Source: Verrucomicrobiota bacterium (GTDB taxonomy: Bacteria; Verrucomicrobiota; Verrucomicrobiia; Limisphaerales; CANJSG01). Taken from it: a stretch of DNA of 34,096 nt. The position numbers and the translations under genes were made by a program. The stretch lies in NCBI GenBank assembly GCA_947476875.1, contig CANJSG010000018.1:1-34096 (forward strand), given 5' to 3'. The notes under the pieces were generated by a model. It was not told where the DNA came from. It was given only the letters and a program-made list of their open reading frames with translations, and did not search any database. Shown here piece by piece: positions 26,016 to 31,161 of the stretch (position 1 is the first letter of the stretch; each line of letters starts with the position of its first letter).

Positions 26016-26756
26016 ATGTCTCAGCGGTTGGCCATCTCCATCGTCGTTCCCGCGTTTAACGAGGAACGGCTGCTCGTCGAATCCCTCCGGGCGGTGAAGG
26101 CGGCGGCGGCGGCCATCTCCGATGCCGGGCTCGGCTGGGAACTCGTCGTCTGCGACAACAACTCCACCGACCGCACCGCCGAGATCGCCCGCAGCGAGGG
26201 AGCCAAGGTCGTCTTCGAGCCCGTCAACCAGATCGGCCGCGCACGCAACACCGGTGCCGCCGCCGCCTCGGGCGAGTGGCTCCTCTTCATCGACGCCGAT
26301 TCCCAGCCATCCCGCGAGCTGCTGGCCGACGCGGTGGAATTGACCCGCCGCCGCGACGTCCTGCTCGCCGGCGCGACCGTGGCGCTCGACGCCGGCGACC
26401 TTGCCGCGCGCGCCGTCTGTGGCCTGTGGAACACTGTCAGCCGCCTTCGGAGGCTGGTCGCGGGATCGTTCATCCTCGTCCGCACGGCGGCGTTCCGCGA
26501 AGTGGGAGGGTTCGATCTGAAATTCTTCGCCGGCGAGGAGCTCGACTTGGCGCTGCGGCTCCAAAAGCGTGTGGGCCGGCGTGAGAAGCAGCGGACGGTC
26601 ATCCTGCACCGCCATCCGCTCGTCACCTCCGCCCGCAAGCTCAAGCTCTACAGCAAGGGCGAGATGGGCCGCTTCTTCATCAAGTCCATCTTCCGACCGA
26701 TGAAGACCGCCTCCAGCCGCGACGAGTGCTCCATGTGGTATGACGGCCGTAGGTAG
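26016..26756 (+). CDS. Family 2 glycosyltransferase
   Basis: A 246-aa GT-A fold glycosyltransferase. The N-terminus 'ISIVVPAFNEERLL' and 'VVCDNNSTDRTAEIA' form the nucleotide-sugar site; 'LLFIDADSQPS' contains the DxD metal motif (about residues 93-95). Later 'GGFDLKFFAGEELDLALRLQ' supplies the ED acceptor-site motif. There is no membrane helix of note, so it probably acts at the cytoplasmic face. The sugar and acceptor cannot be read. It faces away from hldD across a 159-base gap, so a shared link to cell-envelope sugar assembly is possible but not shown. Confidence 0.85.
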   Translation: MSQRLAISIVVPAFNEERLLVESLRAVKAAAAAISDAGLGWELVVCDNNSTDRTAEIARSEGAKVVFEPVNQIGRARNTGAAAASGEWLLFIDADSQPSRELLADAVELTRRRDVLLAGATVALDAGDLAARAVCGLWNTVSRLRRLVAGSFILVRTAAFREVGGFDLKFFAGEELDLALRLQKRVGRREKQRTVILHRHPLVTSARKLKLYSKGEMGRFFIKSIFRPMKTASSRDECSMWYDGRR

Positions 26757-26794
26757 GCCCGGCATGGGTCGCAACCCTCCTCGCCCGGCGAGGC

Positions 26795-26817
26795 GGGGCG
26801 GGCTTCCAGCCTGCCCC
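26795..26817. repeat. GC-rich intergenic hairpin (GGGGCGGGCT/AGCCTGCCCC)
   Basis: A 10-base stem with one G-T pair and a 3-base loop lies 38 bases after the glycosyltransferase stop. There is no T run. It could stall transcription or be part of a dispersed repeat family with the hairpins at 16673 and 31971. Confidence 0.5.
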
Positions 26818-26905
26818 GTGCCGACAATGGCATCCGCTCTGGAGACCGTCCTGTCAGGTCCGCACCGGTTGGTTCCATGTCTGGAGCCGACCAGGCAGAC
26901 AGGAT

Positions 26906-27034
26906 GCACTGCACTACCTCGGAGCAGCCGCTTCGCGCCTGCTTTCTCGACGGACTCGTTCCGGTTTAGCGGAGTGGAGCGGCAACAAGCTCCCCACGCA
27001 CGGCCCGCTTGTCGGGAAGAAGTTTCAAGGCGGC
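26906..27034 (+). repeat. About 130-base repeat, left copy (inverted relative to 28028-28157)
   Basis: Read on the plus strand, this copy matches the reverse complement of 28028-28157 over its whole length, with only scattered mismatches (roughly 90% by eye). Core stretches such as GTTCCGGTTTAGCGGAGTGG and CAACAAGCTCCCCACGCACG are identical. The two copies flank the CPBP gene. The outer ends are GCACTGC and GCAGTGC. No target-site duplication is evident. Confidence 0.85.
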
Positions 27035-27116
27035 CCGGCGGGAGCCTTCGCCCTACCAGCCTGTGAACTCCGCACTTTCGCCGGAGGCCCCGCTGCGTTA
27101 CCCCTGTATCCGCGAC

Positions 27117-28019
27117 ATGGAAACCACTCCTCCTCCAGTCCCTTCAGCCATTCCTCCGATCCCCGAGACCGCGCCCGTGGCGACCGTCGCCAAATGGCGT
27201 TGGCTGGTCCACCTGCTGATCGTCGGGCCCTACCCGATCTGGATCGGGCTGCTCAGCCACTATGGATTCCGGTCTGTCGAAAGCGGCGGCCCCGCCCTCG
27301 GGGGCAACGTGAGTGATCTCATGATGGGTTCCCTGCTCACCCTCGCCACCTTCTTCATCCCATTCGGCCTCGCGTGGATCGCCTCCCGCGCCACCCTCGA
27401 CGACCTCCGGCTGCGCTGGAAAGGCGGCTTCAAACCCTTTGAGAACTTCATGCCCCGTCCGCTCGCCGCACTGGGAACCGGGGTCGTCTACTCCATCGCC
27501 CTCCGCATCGGCGCGGTCCTCCCCATCGGCATCATCATCGGAGCGCTGATGCTCTTCGGAAAGATCCAGTCAGACGGCGTTGAAACCTACATCACCGAGA
27601 ACCGCCCCAACGTCGAGGCCATCGTCGATGTGGCCTCCCTGCGCAACGATCCGGCCTATCTCATCCTGATGCTGACGTTCGTCAGCTTCGTCGTGGCCGG
27701 GCTGCGTGAGGAGCTGTGGCGCTCCGCCACGCTGGCGGGAATGGAGCGTCTTTTCCCCGGCGGGTTCGGCACCAAGATCGGCCGCTATGTCGCCGTGCTT
27801 ATCATCGCCGTCGCGTTCGGCCTCGGGCACCTGTCGCAGGGGCCGATGGGCGTCGTGCTCACCGGATTCCTCGGCGTGGGCCTGGGCGTGATCATCGTCT
27901 TCCACGGCAGCATCTGGCCCGCCGTGATCGCCCACGGCCTCTTCGACGCCACGAGCTTCGCCCTGATCCCCTACGCGCTGGAACTGATGAAGAAAGTCCA
28001 GCCCGTCACCGGCCATTGA
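27117..28019 (+). CDS. CPBP-family intramembrane metalloprotease
   Basis: 300 aa from the ATG at 27117; the frame is open further upstream but runs into the repeat. After a Pro-rich N-terminus there are about eight hydrophobic helices. The three CPBP (Abi/CAAX prenyl protease 2-like) motifs are present: EExxxR-like 'REELWRS' (Glu198, Glu199, Arg202), 'FGLGH' (His238), and 'HGLFDATSF' (His273, Asp277). These residues coordinate a metal or activate water in the membrane. Bacterial members include bacteriocin-immunity and membrane-protein-processing proteases; the substrate is unknown. The gene lies between two inverted copies of a repeat. Confidence 0.85.
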   Translation: METTPPPVPSAIPPIPETAPVATVAKWRWLVHLLIVGPYPIWIGLLSHYGFRSVESGGPALGGNVSDLMMGSLLTLATFFIPFGLAWIASRATLDDLRLRWKGGFKPFENFMPRPLAALGTGVVYSIALRIGAVLPIGIIIGALMLFGKIQSDGVETYITENRPNVEAIVDVASLRNDPAYLILMLTFVSFVVAGLREELWRSATLAGMERLFPGGFGTKIGRYVAVLIIAVAFGLGHLSQGPMGVVLTGFLGVGLGVIIVFHGSIWPAVIAHGLFDATSFALIPYALELMKKVQPVTGH

Positions 28020-28352
28020 GGCAACGAGGCCGCCATGAAACTTCCTCCCGACAAGCGAGCCGTGCGTGGGGAGCTTGTTGCCTCTCCACTCCGCTAAACC
28101 GGAACGAATCCGTCCAGAAAGCAGGCGCGAAGCGGCCGCTCCGAGGCAGGGCAGTGCCCGGCATACTGGACCCTTGGAATGAGTGTTCCCAACAAGCACG
28201 GGTGGATGCGCGCAGGTTGGGAGGAAGCTCCGGCGGACGGCTACGAGCGGCGGTGCTGGCGCCCGGCCACGTCGCCAAACGCAGCCCGAGCACCCGGCCA
28301 GCGGGAGCCGCTGAGATTGCCAAGGCGGAGACGAGCGCCCGCTGCGCCGCGC
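28020..28352. other. Intergenic region between CPBP gene and truncated reductase
   Basis: It contains the right copy of the inverted repeat (28028-28157) and then about 190 bases with no recognisable gene. Open frames exist in this stretch, but their composition (Arg/Pro/Ala-rich) is that of GC-rich non-coding DNA. Confidence 0.55.
28028..28157 (-). repeat. About 130-base repeat, right copy (inverted relative to 26906-27034)
   Basis: The reverse complement of this segment matches the left copy nearly throughout. It starts 8 bases after the CPBP stop codon and ends about 190 bases before the truncated reductase remnant. Whether it is a mobile element, a palindromic repeat family or a recombination scar cannot be told from two copies. 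Confidence 0.85.
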
Positions 28353-28649
28353 GTGCATGGCCGGATCATCGCCTGTGGCGGGATCTCCTCCTACAACGAC
28401 GAGAAACCAAAACCCGGTCCCGCCAACCTCTTCAACATGACGACCAAACGGCTCACGATGAAGGGACTGATCGTCGGCGATTGGCTCGATCGTCAGAGCG
28501 AATTTGAAAAGGAGGCGGGCGGCTTTTTCCGCGCCGGAAAGCTCAAGCACAAGGAAACCGTGGTGGCAGGAATCGACCAAGCCGTGGACGCATTTCTCGG
28601 GCTCTTCACCGGAAAGAACTCAGGCAAGATGGTCGTGAAACTGACGTGA
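28353..28649 (+). pseudogene. 3' remnant of a CurA/LTB4-dehydrogenase-like NADPH-dependent reductase
   Basis: The last 98 codons match the C-terminal end of medium-chain NADPH-dependent reductases of the CurA/leukotriene B4 12-hydroxydehydrogenase type: 'GRIIACGGISSYND', 'GPANLFNMTTKRLTMKGLIV', 'HKETVVAGIDQAVDAFLGLF' and 'GKNSGKMVV'. A full enzyme has about 330 residues. Upstream of about 28353 the homology stops abruptly and the frame turns into low-complexity GC-rich translation next to the repeat, so the nucleotide-binding and N-terminal domains are missing. It is almost certainly a deletion remnant. The frame itself is still open to the end. Confidence 0.8.
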
Positions 28650-28686
28650 TGCTGCCCGGCTAACGCCAGAGAACGAAAACGAATTT

Positions 28687-30069
28687 ATGCCCTACCAAAG
28701 TATCAATCCCGCCACCGGCAAAGTCTTGAAAACCTTCAAGGAGCTAACCGCCGCCCAGCTCGAACAAGCACTCCGCACCGCTGCGACCTGTTACACCACC
28801 TGGCGACATACGTCGTTTGCCCACCGTGCAACCGTCGCTGCGAAGGCCGTGGCCATCCTGCGCAAGCGCGCGGACGAGTTCGCCCGGCCGATGACGATCG
28901 AGATGGGCAAACGCATCGAAGAGGCCCGCGATGAAGTCGCGATCAGCGCCGACATCATCGACTACTATGCCAAAAACGCCGAACGCTTCCTGGCTCCCCA
29001 AAAGCTCAAGCCCAAGTCGGATCAGGCCGTGATAGAAAGCAGCCCGCTCGGCGTCCTCTTCGGCGTTCAACCGTGGAATTTTCCCTACTACCAACTCGCC
29101 CGCTTTGCTGCGCCAAATCTGATGGCTGGCAATGTCGTGATGGTGAAACACGCTGGCTGCGTGCCGCAGTGCGCCCTGGCTTTTGAGCGACTGTGGCGGG
29201 AGGCCGGCGCGCCCGTGGGTGCCTACACCAATCTTTTCATCTCCCACGACCAGGTGAACGAGGTCATCGACGACCCGCGTATCCAGGGCGTGGCGTTGAC
29301 CGGTGGCGTGGACGCTGCGCGGGGAGTCGCCGCCCGCGCCGGCCAGAACGTCAAGAAGACCACCATGGAGCTGGGCGGCAACGATGCCTTCATCGTGCTC
29401 GCCGACGCCGATCTCGACAAAACAGTCAAATGGGCCGTCTGGGCCAAAATGAACAACATGGGCCAATGCTGCGTCGCCGCGAAACGCTTCATCATCGTCG
29501 GAAAACTCTACGACCGCTTTCTCGCCAAATTTCAAGCGGCACTCGCGGCGTTCACGCCGGGCGACCCGATGGACCCGGCGACGACCCTCTCCCCGCTGTC
29601 CACTGAAGCCGCCTTGGCCACATTGCTCGCCCAGGTAAAACGCGCCGTAGCCAAGGGCGCGACCGTGGTGCTCGGCGGCAAGCGCATCGCCCGCCCCGGC
29701 TCCTACATGCAGCCGACGATTCTCACCGACATCTCCCCAAAAAACCCCGCCTACCGCGAAGAGTTTTTCGGCCCCGTCGCGCTGCTCTTCCGCGTGAAGA
29801 ATGAAGAGGAAGCCATCGCCCTCGCCAACGATTCGGACTTCGGTCTGGGTGGTTCCGTTTTCACTCAGGACATCGCGCGCGGCCAGCGCGTGGCCCGCCG
29901 CCTCGACACCGGCATGGTCTTCATCAATCACCCGACCTGGACGGCCGCGGAACTGCCGTTCGGCGGCATCAAGCATTCCGGCTACGGGCGCGAACTCTCC
30001 AGCTTGGGCATCCAAGAGTTCGTGAATAAAAAACTGGTGCGCGTTTCCTCGCTCGATGCGTCCCCCTAG
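28687..30069 (+). CDS. NAD(P)-dependent aldehyde dehydrogenase, succinate-semialdehyde dehydrogenase-like
   Basis: A 460-aa enzyme of the ALDH superfamily, close in length and style to the YneI/Sad succinate-semialdehyde group. Visible motifs are the catalytic asparagine in 'QPWNFPYYQ', the general-base Glu in 'MELGGNDAF', the catalytic Cys in 'NMGQCCVAAKRF', and the 'EEFFGPV' cofactor motif. The usual TGS of the nucleotide site reads TGG ('VALTGGVDAARG'). It oxidises an aldehyde to an acid in the cytoplasm; the exact aldehyde is not certain. Lysine codons are 15 AAA to 12 AAG by hand count, whereas most neighbours prefer AAG, a mild hint of different origin. An alcohol dehydrogenase follows after 39 bases. 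Confidence 0.9.
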   Translation: MPYQSINPATGKVLKTFKELTAAQLEQALRTAATCYTTWRHTSFAHRATVAAKAVAILRKRADEFARPMTIEMGKRIEEARDEVAISADIIDYYAKNAERFLAPQKLKPKSDQAVIESSPLGVLFGVQPWNFPYYQLARFAAPNLMAGNVVMVKHAGCVPQCALAFERLWREAGAPVGAYTNLFISHDQVNEVIDDPRIQGVALTGGVDAARGVAARAGQNVKKTTMELGGNDAFIVLADADLDKTVKWAVWAKMNNMGQCCVAAKRFIIVGKLYDRFLAKFQAALAAFTPGDPMDPATTLSPLSTEAALATLLAQVKRAVAKGATVVLGGKRIARPGSYMQPTILTDISPKNPAYREEFFGPVALLFRVKNEEEAIALANDSDFGLGGSVFTQDIARGQRVARRLDTGMVFINHPTWTAAELPFGGIKHSGYGRELSSLGIQEFVNKKLVRVSSLDASP

Positions 30070-30108: not shown

Positions 30109-31161
30109 ATGAAAACTAACGCTTACGCGGTCACGGCCGCCAACTCCCTACTCGCACCATTTCAACTCCAACGCCGAGATCCCGGGTCTCACGATGTGGA
30201 AATGGAGATTCTGTTCTGCGGTGTCTGCCACTCGGATGTGCATACCGTTCGCAACGAATGGCTGGGAACGACTTACCCCTGCGTTCCCGGCCATGAAATC
30301 ATCGGTCGTGTGACCCGGGTCGGCAACCAAGTGAGGAATTTCAAAGAGGGCGAAATTGTCGGCGCCGGTTGCCTGGTCGATTCGTGCCGCACCTGCGCGA
30401 GCTGCAAGGTGGATCTGGAGCAGTTCTGCGAAGCCGGCGCGATCTTCACCTACAACTCGCCCGACAAGCACTCGGGAGGAATCACCTACGGCGGTTATTC
30501 CGACAGCATCGTCGTAGACGAAGCGTTTGTGCTCGCCGTCCCCCAGAATCTCGATCCCGCGGCGGCGGCTCCTTTGCTCTGTGCCGGCATCACCACCTAC
30601 TCGCCGTTGAAGCACCACAAGGTGACCAAAGGGCAGAAGGTCGGCGTGGTGGGTCTGGGCGGACTGGGGCACATGGGGGTGAAACTGGCCAAGGCGTTCG
30701 GCGCGCACGTCGTCGTTTTCACCACGTCGCTCAACAAGGTGGAGGATGCGCTGCGACTGGGCGCCGACGAGGTCGTCCATTCCAAGGACGAGGCCGCCAT
30801 GAAGAGGCACCTGAACAGTTGCCACTTCATCCTCGATACCGTGGCCGCGAAGCACGACCTCAACGCCTATCTCGTCATGCTCCGGCGGGACGGAACGCTG
30901 ACCCAGGTCGGTGTGCCGTCCGAGCCGCTCGCGGTTGACGTCAGCAACCTCATCTTTGGCCGCCGCAACTTGAGCGGCTCGCTCATCGGCGGTCTCAAGG
31001 AGACCCAGGAAATGCTCATTTTCTGCGGCCAGCACAACGTCACCGCCGATATTGAACTCATCCCGATCCAGCAGATCAACGCAGCCTACGACCGCCTCGT
31101 GAAGAGCGACGTGAAATACCGCTTCGTCATCGACATGGCCTCGCTGAAGCAGGCGTCTTAA
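30109..31161 (+). CDS. Zinc-dependent alcohol dehydrogenase (YahK/cinnamyl alcohol dehydrogenase-like)
   Basis: A 350-aa medium-chain dehydrogenase. Catalytic zinc ligands are visible in 'CGVCHSDVH' and 'PGHEIIG'. The structural zinc lobe 'CRTCASCKVDLEQFC' carries four Cys. The Rossmann motif 'GVVGLGGLGHMGVKLAKAFG' binds NADP(H) or NAD(H). The pattern is that of the YahK/AdhC aldehyde reductase group, which interconverts aldehydes and primary alcohols. It follows the aldehyde dehydrogenase gene on the same strand, so together they could oxidise an alcohol to an acid or clear toxic aldehydes. The substrate is inferred only at that level. Confidence 0.93.
   Translation: MKTNAYAVTAANSLLAPFQLQRRDPGSHDVEMEILFCGVCHSDVHTVRNEWLGTTYPCVPGHEIIGRVTRVGNQVRNFKEGEIVGAGCLVDSCRTCASCKVDLEQFCEAGAIFTYNSPDKHSGGITYGGYSDSIVVDEAFVLAVPQNLDPAAAAPLLCAGITTYSPLKHHKVTKGQKVGVVGLGGLGHMGVKLAKAFGAHVVVFTTSLNKVEDALRLGADEVVHSKDEAAMKRHLNSCHFILDTVAAKHDLNAYLVMLRRDGTLTQVGVPSEPLAVDVSNLIFGRRNLSGSLIGGLKETQEMLIFCGQHNVTADIELIPIQQINAAYDRLVKSDVKYRFVIDMASLKQAS

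Follow-up and report, generated by a model that had tools for sequence, protein, structure and literature searches.

Composite transposons and MITE-type passenger elements place inverted arms around one passenger gene. Among REP sequences, REPINs are REP doublets that replicate (PMC3116915), and GTAG repeats occur in the Verrucomicrobia, namely in Opitutus terrae (PMC3733652). REPtrons and TIRtrons are RAYT or TIRYT transposase genes with REPs or long TIRs on either side; the name TIRtron is used for loci with TIRs, and long TIRs composed of a degenerate GTAG unit and another stem-loop have been described around these transposases (PMC3733652). Fold-back inversions and inverted duplications form a further point of comparison, drawn from a literature that, in the part sampled here, is mainly eukaryotic.

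The window analyzed here, i.e., the whole 34,096-nt stretch of DNA from a Verrucomicrobiota bacterium, contains a gene for a CPBP membrane protease between two inverted arms. The locus is similar to REPtrons and TIRtrons in having one gene between inverted arms with REP pieces and hairpins, and the same genome holds RAYT genes in that geometry; in contrast to those systems, the gene between the arms encodes a protease (PF02517) and not a Y1 transposase, and the arms are longer than, and unrelated to, the RAYT arms of the same genome. It shares the inverted arms and the single passenger gene with composite transposons and MITE-type elements, but it has no transposase, neither a target duplication nor a second copy was found, and its ends lie inside REP elements. 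As in fold-back inversions and inverted duplications, an inverted copy of a short tract lies beside a breakpoint with sequence loss, and the anatomy of the CPBP locus suggests a comparable mechanism. Among the entries listed by keyword searches of one open library, no title or beginning of an abstract dealt with a REP-flanked passenger gene of this kind.

Inverted arms around the CPBP gene

A repeat search identified positions 26906-27035 and 28028-28157 as the sole long inverted pair in the window. The first-pass annotation of this DNA had described two near-identical reverse-complement segments with a CPBP protease gene as the only gene between them. Both points were borne out, with the left arm ending at 27035 and not at 27034, and with the CPBP gene as the only one between the arms that has a family match (PF02517). 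The features of this part of the window are as follows.

26016-26756, plus strand: family 2 glycosyltransferase gene, the upstream neighbour (PF00535, E 1.8e-24)
26906-27035, plus strand: left arm of the inverted repeat (repeat search, arm alignment)
27117-28019, plus strand: CPBP/Rce1-like membrane protease gene, 300 codons (PF02517, E 2.5e-13; homologues)
28028-28157, minus strand: right arm of the inverted repeat, stopping inside both REP elements (repeat search, arm edges)

The arms, each 130 nt long and separated by 992 nt, are 93% complementary, and their alignment contains nine mismatches and no gaps; at most 24 consecutive positions are identical. The chance expectation of such a pair over all placements, a binomial estimate based on the base composition of the window, is about 1e-49 and thus negligible. 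The right arm begins 8 nt behind the CPBP stop codon. We further examined close inverted repeats, defined as at least 45 nt long, less than 6 kb apart and with E<=1e-6, in a sample of 41 stretches including the window (834,096 nt, about 20% of the 4.17-Mb genome). Only three were observed, the CPBP arm pair being the longest, and the geometry of the CPBP arms is unusual for this genome.

The gene itself looks resident. Its GC content (0.650) and third-position GC content (0.854) are both within the range of the neighbouring genes. A CPBP match was detected in 9 of 58 genomes in the search of relatives, the own genome included, and 75 loci with CPBP relatives were collected from genome contigs, the best at 47-49% and nearly all labelled Verrucomicrobia. 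No hit to the arms or their families was found around the homologues at any of the 75 loci at E<=0.01 (best E 0.035), and only one of the 70 loci with enough flanking sequence (L138) carried a flanking inverted repeat, 46 nt long at 83%. Comparison of gene order across the 75 loci showed no common neighbour beyond alcohol dehydrogenase matches of 23-24% at three loci. The first CPBP motif is EExxxR, with three residues between EE and R; in the protein encoded at 27117-28019 and in four aligned homologues it reads REELWR, with two.

The geometry permits recombination between the arms, which would flip the CPBP gene and thereby switch its transcription, and a 130-nt inverted repeat is long enough for this in principle; inversion between terminal inverted repeats has been reported for insertion sequences in the part of the literature consulted (PMC3004938). 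However, the arms have drifted to 93% identity with no identical run above 24 nt, a search limited to sigma-70-like promoters detected none in 26700-28700, and no recombinase match appeared among the neighbouring genes scanned. We consider an invertible segment very unlikely. A role at the RNA level, in which arms within one transcript would pair into a long panhandle or a 3' stem and so protect or silence the CPBP mRNA, has in its favour that the arms are complementary by construction and that a stem can form immediately downstream of the gene from the right arm and its left edge. For the left arm and its flank, however, a structured RNA was rejected, as the fold was no better than those of shuffled sequences (z -0.51). 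This, together with the lack of a terminator-like site on the CPBP strand and of arms around the homologues, makes such a role very unlikely. Searches with known RNA families gave no match in the window.

Composition and distribution of the arms

Inspection of the arm sequence revealed a mosaic in each arm, which starts with the end of a REPIN-A element and continues with a hairpin tract, termed C, then a stretch of about 50 nt that occurs only in these two arms, and finally the beginning of a REP-B element. The parts on the left side of the locus are listed below.

26787-26925, no strand: REPIN-A element with left REP 26792-26816 and right REP 26893-26918, edges approximate (copies of 77-79% in C7, C36 and C13)
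26926-26975, no strand: hairpin tract C within the left arm, edges approximate (copies in C13, C280 and C66 follow the stop codons of long open frames)
26969-27028, minus strand: open frame of 20 codons within the left arm, ending in TAA; speculatively, what is left of the 3' end of a lost gene (frame reading)
27029-27057, minus strand: REP-B copy, corresponding to the right half of REPIN-B, with the left half absent here; the arm ends inside it (REP-B search)

On its outer side, the left arm consists of the right end of a REPIN-like REP-A element at about 26787-26925. REP-A and REP-B are palindromic, tagged GGTAGGGC and dispersed, and mostly form inverted pairs about 100 nt apart. The GTAG-type palindrome of REP-B gave 71 matches at up to two mismatches, compared with none in a reversed control, and REP-A gave 18 matches at up to three mismatches. 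Twenty inverted pairs of REP-B were collected; in one of them the partners are 244 nt apart, and one pair at a contig end gave no extracted sequence. With GTAG-tagged palindromes, many dispersed copies and mostly inverted pairs, both elements have the properties of REPINs and GTAG REPs. The whole 130-nt arm, in contrast, is a junction of parts of two such elements with other sequence and, instead of being dispersed in many copies, occurs as one pair only, with its two full copies both in the window.

Hairpin tract C begins with CCGGAAC (CGGAAC in C66) and is located directly behind the stop codons of long open frames (L003/C13, L071/C280 and L077/C66), while the frame preceding the second tract C on C13 has only 11 codons. 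The tract may be a terminator-like or an insertion-site-specific repeat. A covariance model of the REP-A end plus tract C, built from five sequences, gave 20 hits in the own genome at E<=1. Of these, 12 had E values below 1e-3, and the five training sequences are among the 12. The 20-codon frame in the arm tail was also considered as the 3' end of a lost gene. This idea stays a speculation because the 20-residue peptide has no match elsewhere in 320 genomes (E<=0.05), the frames of the arm tail have no Pfam match and, in our reading of the arm alignment, three of the four mismatches inside the frame alter a residue.

The first-pass annotation had called for a genome-wide count of the repeat, and this count returned two full copies, both at the CPBP locus. 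Searching the own genome (317 contigs) with positions 26880-27060 as a query gave 62 matches, of which two span the full arm. Three further matches (two on contig C13, at 75% and 80%, and one on C36, at 82% over 48 nt) cover part of the arm together with the flank outside it, and nearly all the remaining matches cover just the final ~35 nt, i.e., REP-B, a separate repeat. The arm was not found in 57 relatives by DNA search at E<=0.001, nor did a search of 320 genomes of the order at E<=1e-4 find the full arm in any of the other 319, none of which belongs to the same family. Additional copies may be missing from the assembly because it is fragmented and 85.5% complete. The ordinary explanation envisaged earlier, an abundant intergenic repeat family beside a CPBP locus that is conserved without it, thus holds in part: the arms carry dispersed REP pieces and armless CPBP homologues exist, but the full 130-nt arm is not abundant and forms a single pair.

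These data bear on the possibility that a rare composite repeat, made up of the REP-A end, hairpin C, the private tail and the REP-B start, was inserted twice, independently and in opposite orientation, on the two sides of the gene. Such a repeat would be a REP-type element of larger size, of which this assembly retains few copies. The succession of REPIN-A and hairpin C recurs elsewhere in the genome, tract C often lies directly behind stop codons, as does the right arm behind the CPBP stop, and the assembly is incomplete, all of which is consistent with this reading. However, the last ~50 nt of the arm, which belong to neither REP-A nor C, occur only at the CPBP locus, and it would be a coincidence for the sole two copies to have landed less than 1.3 kb apart; we consider two insertions rather unlikely. 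The left arm runs on into REPIN-A on its outside and into REP-B on its inside, while the right arm stops inside both elements, which suggests that the right arm is the copy.

Truncated reductase cluster beyond the right arm

The sequence to the right of the arm pair contains a gene cluster whose first member is incomplete, as listed below.

28158-28334, no strand: tract unique within the sampled sequence of this genome, apart from one 29-nt match at 86% (DNA comparison)
28335-28649, plus strand: truncated gene for an NADP-dependent double-bond reductase, of which roughly the final 100 codons remain (PDB 7e4d, E 1.9e-23; breakpoint by DNA comparison)
28687-30069, plus strand: aldehyde dehydrogenase gene, second in the conserved cluster (PF00171, E 1.6e-134; 86% in L232)
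30109-31161, plus strand: zinc alcohol dehydrogenase gene, third in the conserved cluster (PF00107, E 1.1e-24; 85% in L232)

The reductase remnant starts 178 nt past the right arm. The open frame at 28179-28649 matches only residues 256-356 of the 362-residue PDB 7e4d chain, and DNA homology to the reductases of relatives begins abruptly at about 28335, corresponding to residue 237 of 335 in the intact L232 protein, so that approximately the first 235 codons of the first gene of the cluster are missing. The N-terminal reductase domain PF16884 was not found in the own genome. The reductase segment was detected at E<=1e-10 in 34 of 320 genomes of the order (own included), mostly inside open frames of more than 300 codons. 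In L232 (G308), a whole reductase gene is followed by the aldehyde dehydrogenase (86%) and alcohol dehydrogenase (85%) genes in the same order as in the window, and reductase and aldehyde dehydrogenase occur together in L231, L233 and L234, the L233 hit being in two pieces. In contrast, among 29 loci of relatives with short flanks, only five had an aldehyde dehydrogenase hit beside the reductase (L202, L203, L204, L218 and, over 41 residues only, L205). At the last of these (L205/L235; G285, contig C106), the whole reductase is followed by just residues 419-459 of the aldehyde dehydrogenase, as if that gene had been mostly deleted.

The CPBP block adjoins a rearrangement breakpoint, since the reductase is cut to about 100 codons here and is whole, with the same two genes behind it, in a relative. 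Positions 26700-28335 gave no DNA match in six reductase loci of relatives, and neither the CPBP nor the glycosyltransferase gene was found at relatives' reductase loci, which indicates that the glycosyltransferase-CPBP block became attached to a cluster already missing its 5' end, although an artificial assembly join at 28158-28335 is possible. The first-pass annotation had likened the locus to a passenger gene in a composite non-autonomous element or to an invertible segment. The arms and their geometry are real, but a composite mobile element is not supported: the outer arm edges share no word longer than 5 nt that might represent a target duplication, no second location was found, and the truncated reductase 178 nt beyond the right arm points to a rearrangement with loss and not to a clean insertion.

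Taken together, the arms probably, though by no means certainly, arose when a REP mosaic was duplicated locally in inverted orientation, so that it now surrounds a resident CPBP gene, beside an old rearrangement breakpoint. The hairpin-rich REP tract may have served as a switch point, by fold-back or template switch, during replication or break repair, which would have left an inverted copy about 1 kb away. The copying could have taken place in the same event as the reductase loss or in a related one, and the arms would later have drifted to 93% identity. The locus has the anatomy of such a duplication, in that one arm still lies within the repeats from which it derives, the other is truncated and a breakpoint is nearby, and we infer a common origin of the arm copy and the breakpoint 178 nt from it. 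This reading is supported by the confinement of both full arm copies in the genome to this locus and their absence from 319 other genomes of the order, by the left arm running into complete repeat elements on both sides where the right arm does not, by the abrupt start of homology at about 28335 together with the L232 gene order and the missing N-terminal reductase domain, and by the CPBP relatives without arms in many Verrucomicrobia and a GC content like that of the neighbours. Against it, the left-to-right direction of copying is read from the arm edges, and a later loss of the sequences flanking the right arm would give the same picture; in a fragmented assembly, other copies may be missing and a join may be artificial. 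We infer no dedicated mobility, inversion or regulatory function of the arms. If the locus is ordinary in this sense, it illustrates clearly that REP-rich tracts occur at rearrangement junctions and can mimic a composite transposon.

RAYT loci in the same genome

Six Y1_Tnp matches were detected in the own genome, five of which pass the cut-off. The arm test covered four of the six Y1_Tnp loci, those on contigs C187, C27, C29 and C61; the other two are on C6 and C269. The RAYT (Y1_Tnp) genes on C187 (L059) and C27 (L060) are flanked by inverted repeats of 89-91 nt with 78% and 87% identity and are similar to the published TIRtrons in these flanks. The locus on C29 has an unevenly placed 32-nt inverted pair, and no flanking inverted repeat was found at the C61 locus. 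The other two close inverted repeats of the 834-kb sample flank RAYT-like frames on C9 (Y1_Tnp E 0.0087) and C38 (E 0.012), neither of which reaches the Pfam cut-off. Within this sample, about a fifth of the genome, the close inverted-repeat geometry is therefore otherwise that of RAYT loci, a coincidence that local inverted duplication leaves unexplained. Between the CPBP arms and the RAYT arms, only word matches at chance level were observed, with no real shared sequence.

These loci raise the question of whether the CPBP locus is a REPtron- or TIRtron-like unit in which the CPBP gene replaces the tyrosine transposase and which is moved in trans, via single-stranded DNA, by the RAYT enzymes of the genome. 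The inverted repeats around the RAYT genes of C187 and C27 and around the sub-threshold frames of C9 and C38, the REP ends within the CPBP arms, and the long TIRs of a degenerate GTAG unit and another stem-loop described around such transposases (PMC3733652) all argue for it. On the other hand, the putative unit was found at one location only, no clean empty site was seen in relatives, all from outside the family, its arms have no real sequence in common with the RAYT arms, and REPtrons are said, in the part of the source consulted, not to transpose as units (PMC6006769). We regard movement by RAYT enzymes as improbable, and it is equally doubtful that the arrival of such a unit at this site removed the 5' part of the reductase gene. 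If this reading were true, domesticated RAYT transposases, thought to move only short REP elements, could carry host genes.

The 1185-residue frame at L197:607-4164 (C38) matches alanyl-tRNA synthetase (PF01411, E 3.7e-173) and contains an in-frame RAYT-like stretch at residues 563-625 (Y1_Tnp E 0.012), with 51-nt inverted repeats at its two ends. This essential gene thus appears to contain an entire REPtron-like unit that is read through. REP inserts within genes are known (PMC3733652), and no description of a RAYT gene inside another gene was found in the part of the REP literature examined. At L167:15120-15708 (C9), a 143-codon RAYT-like frame lies between 67-nt inverted REP doublets, which belong to a third family, tagged GGTGG.
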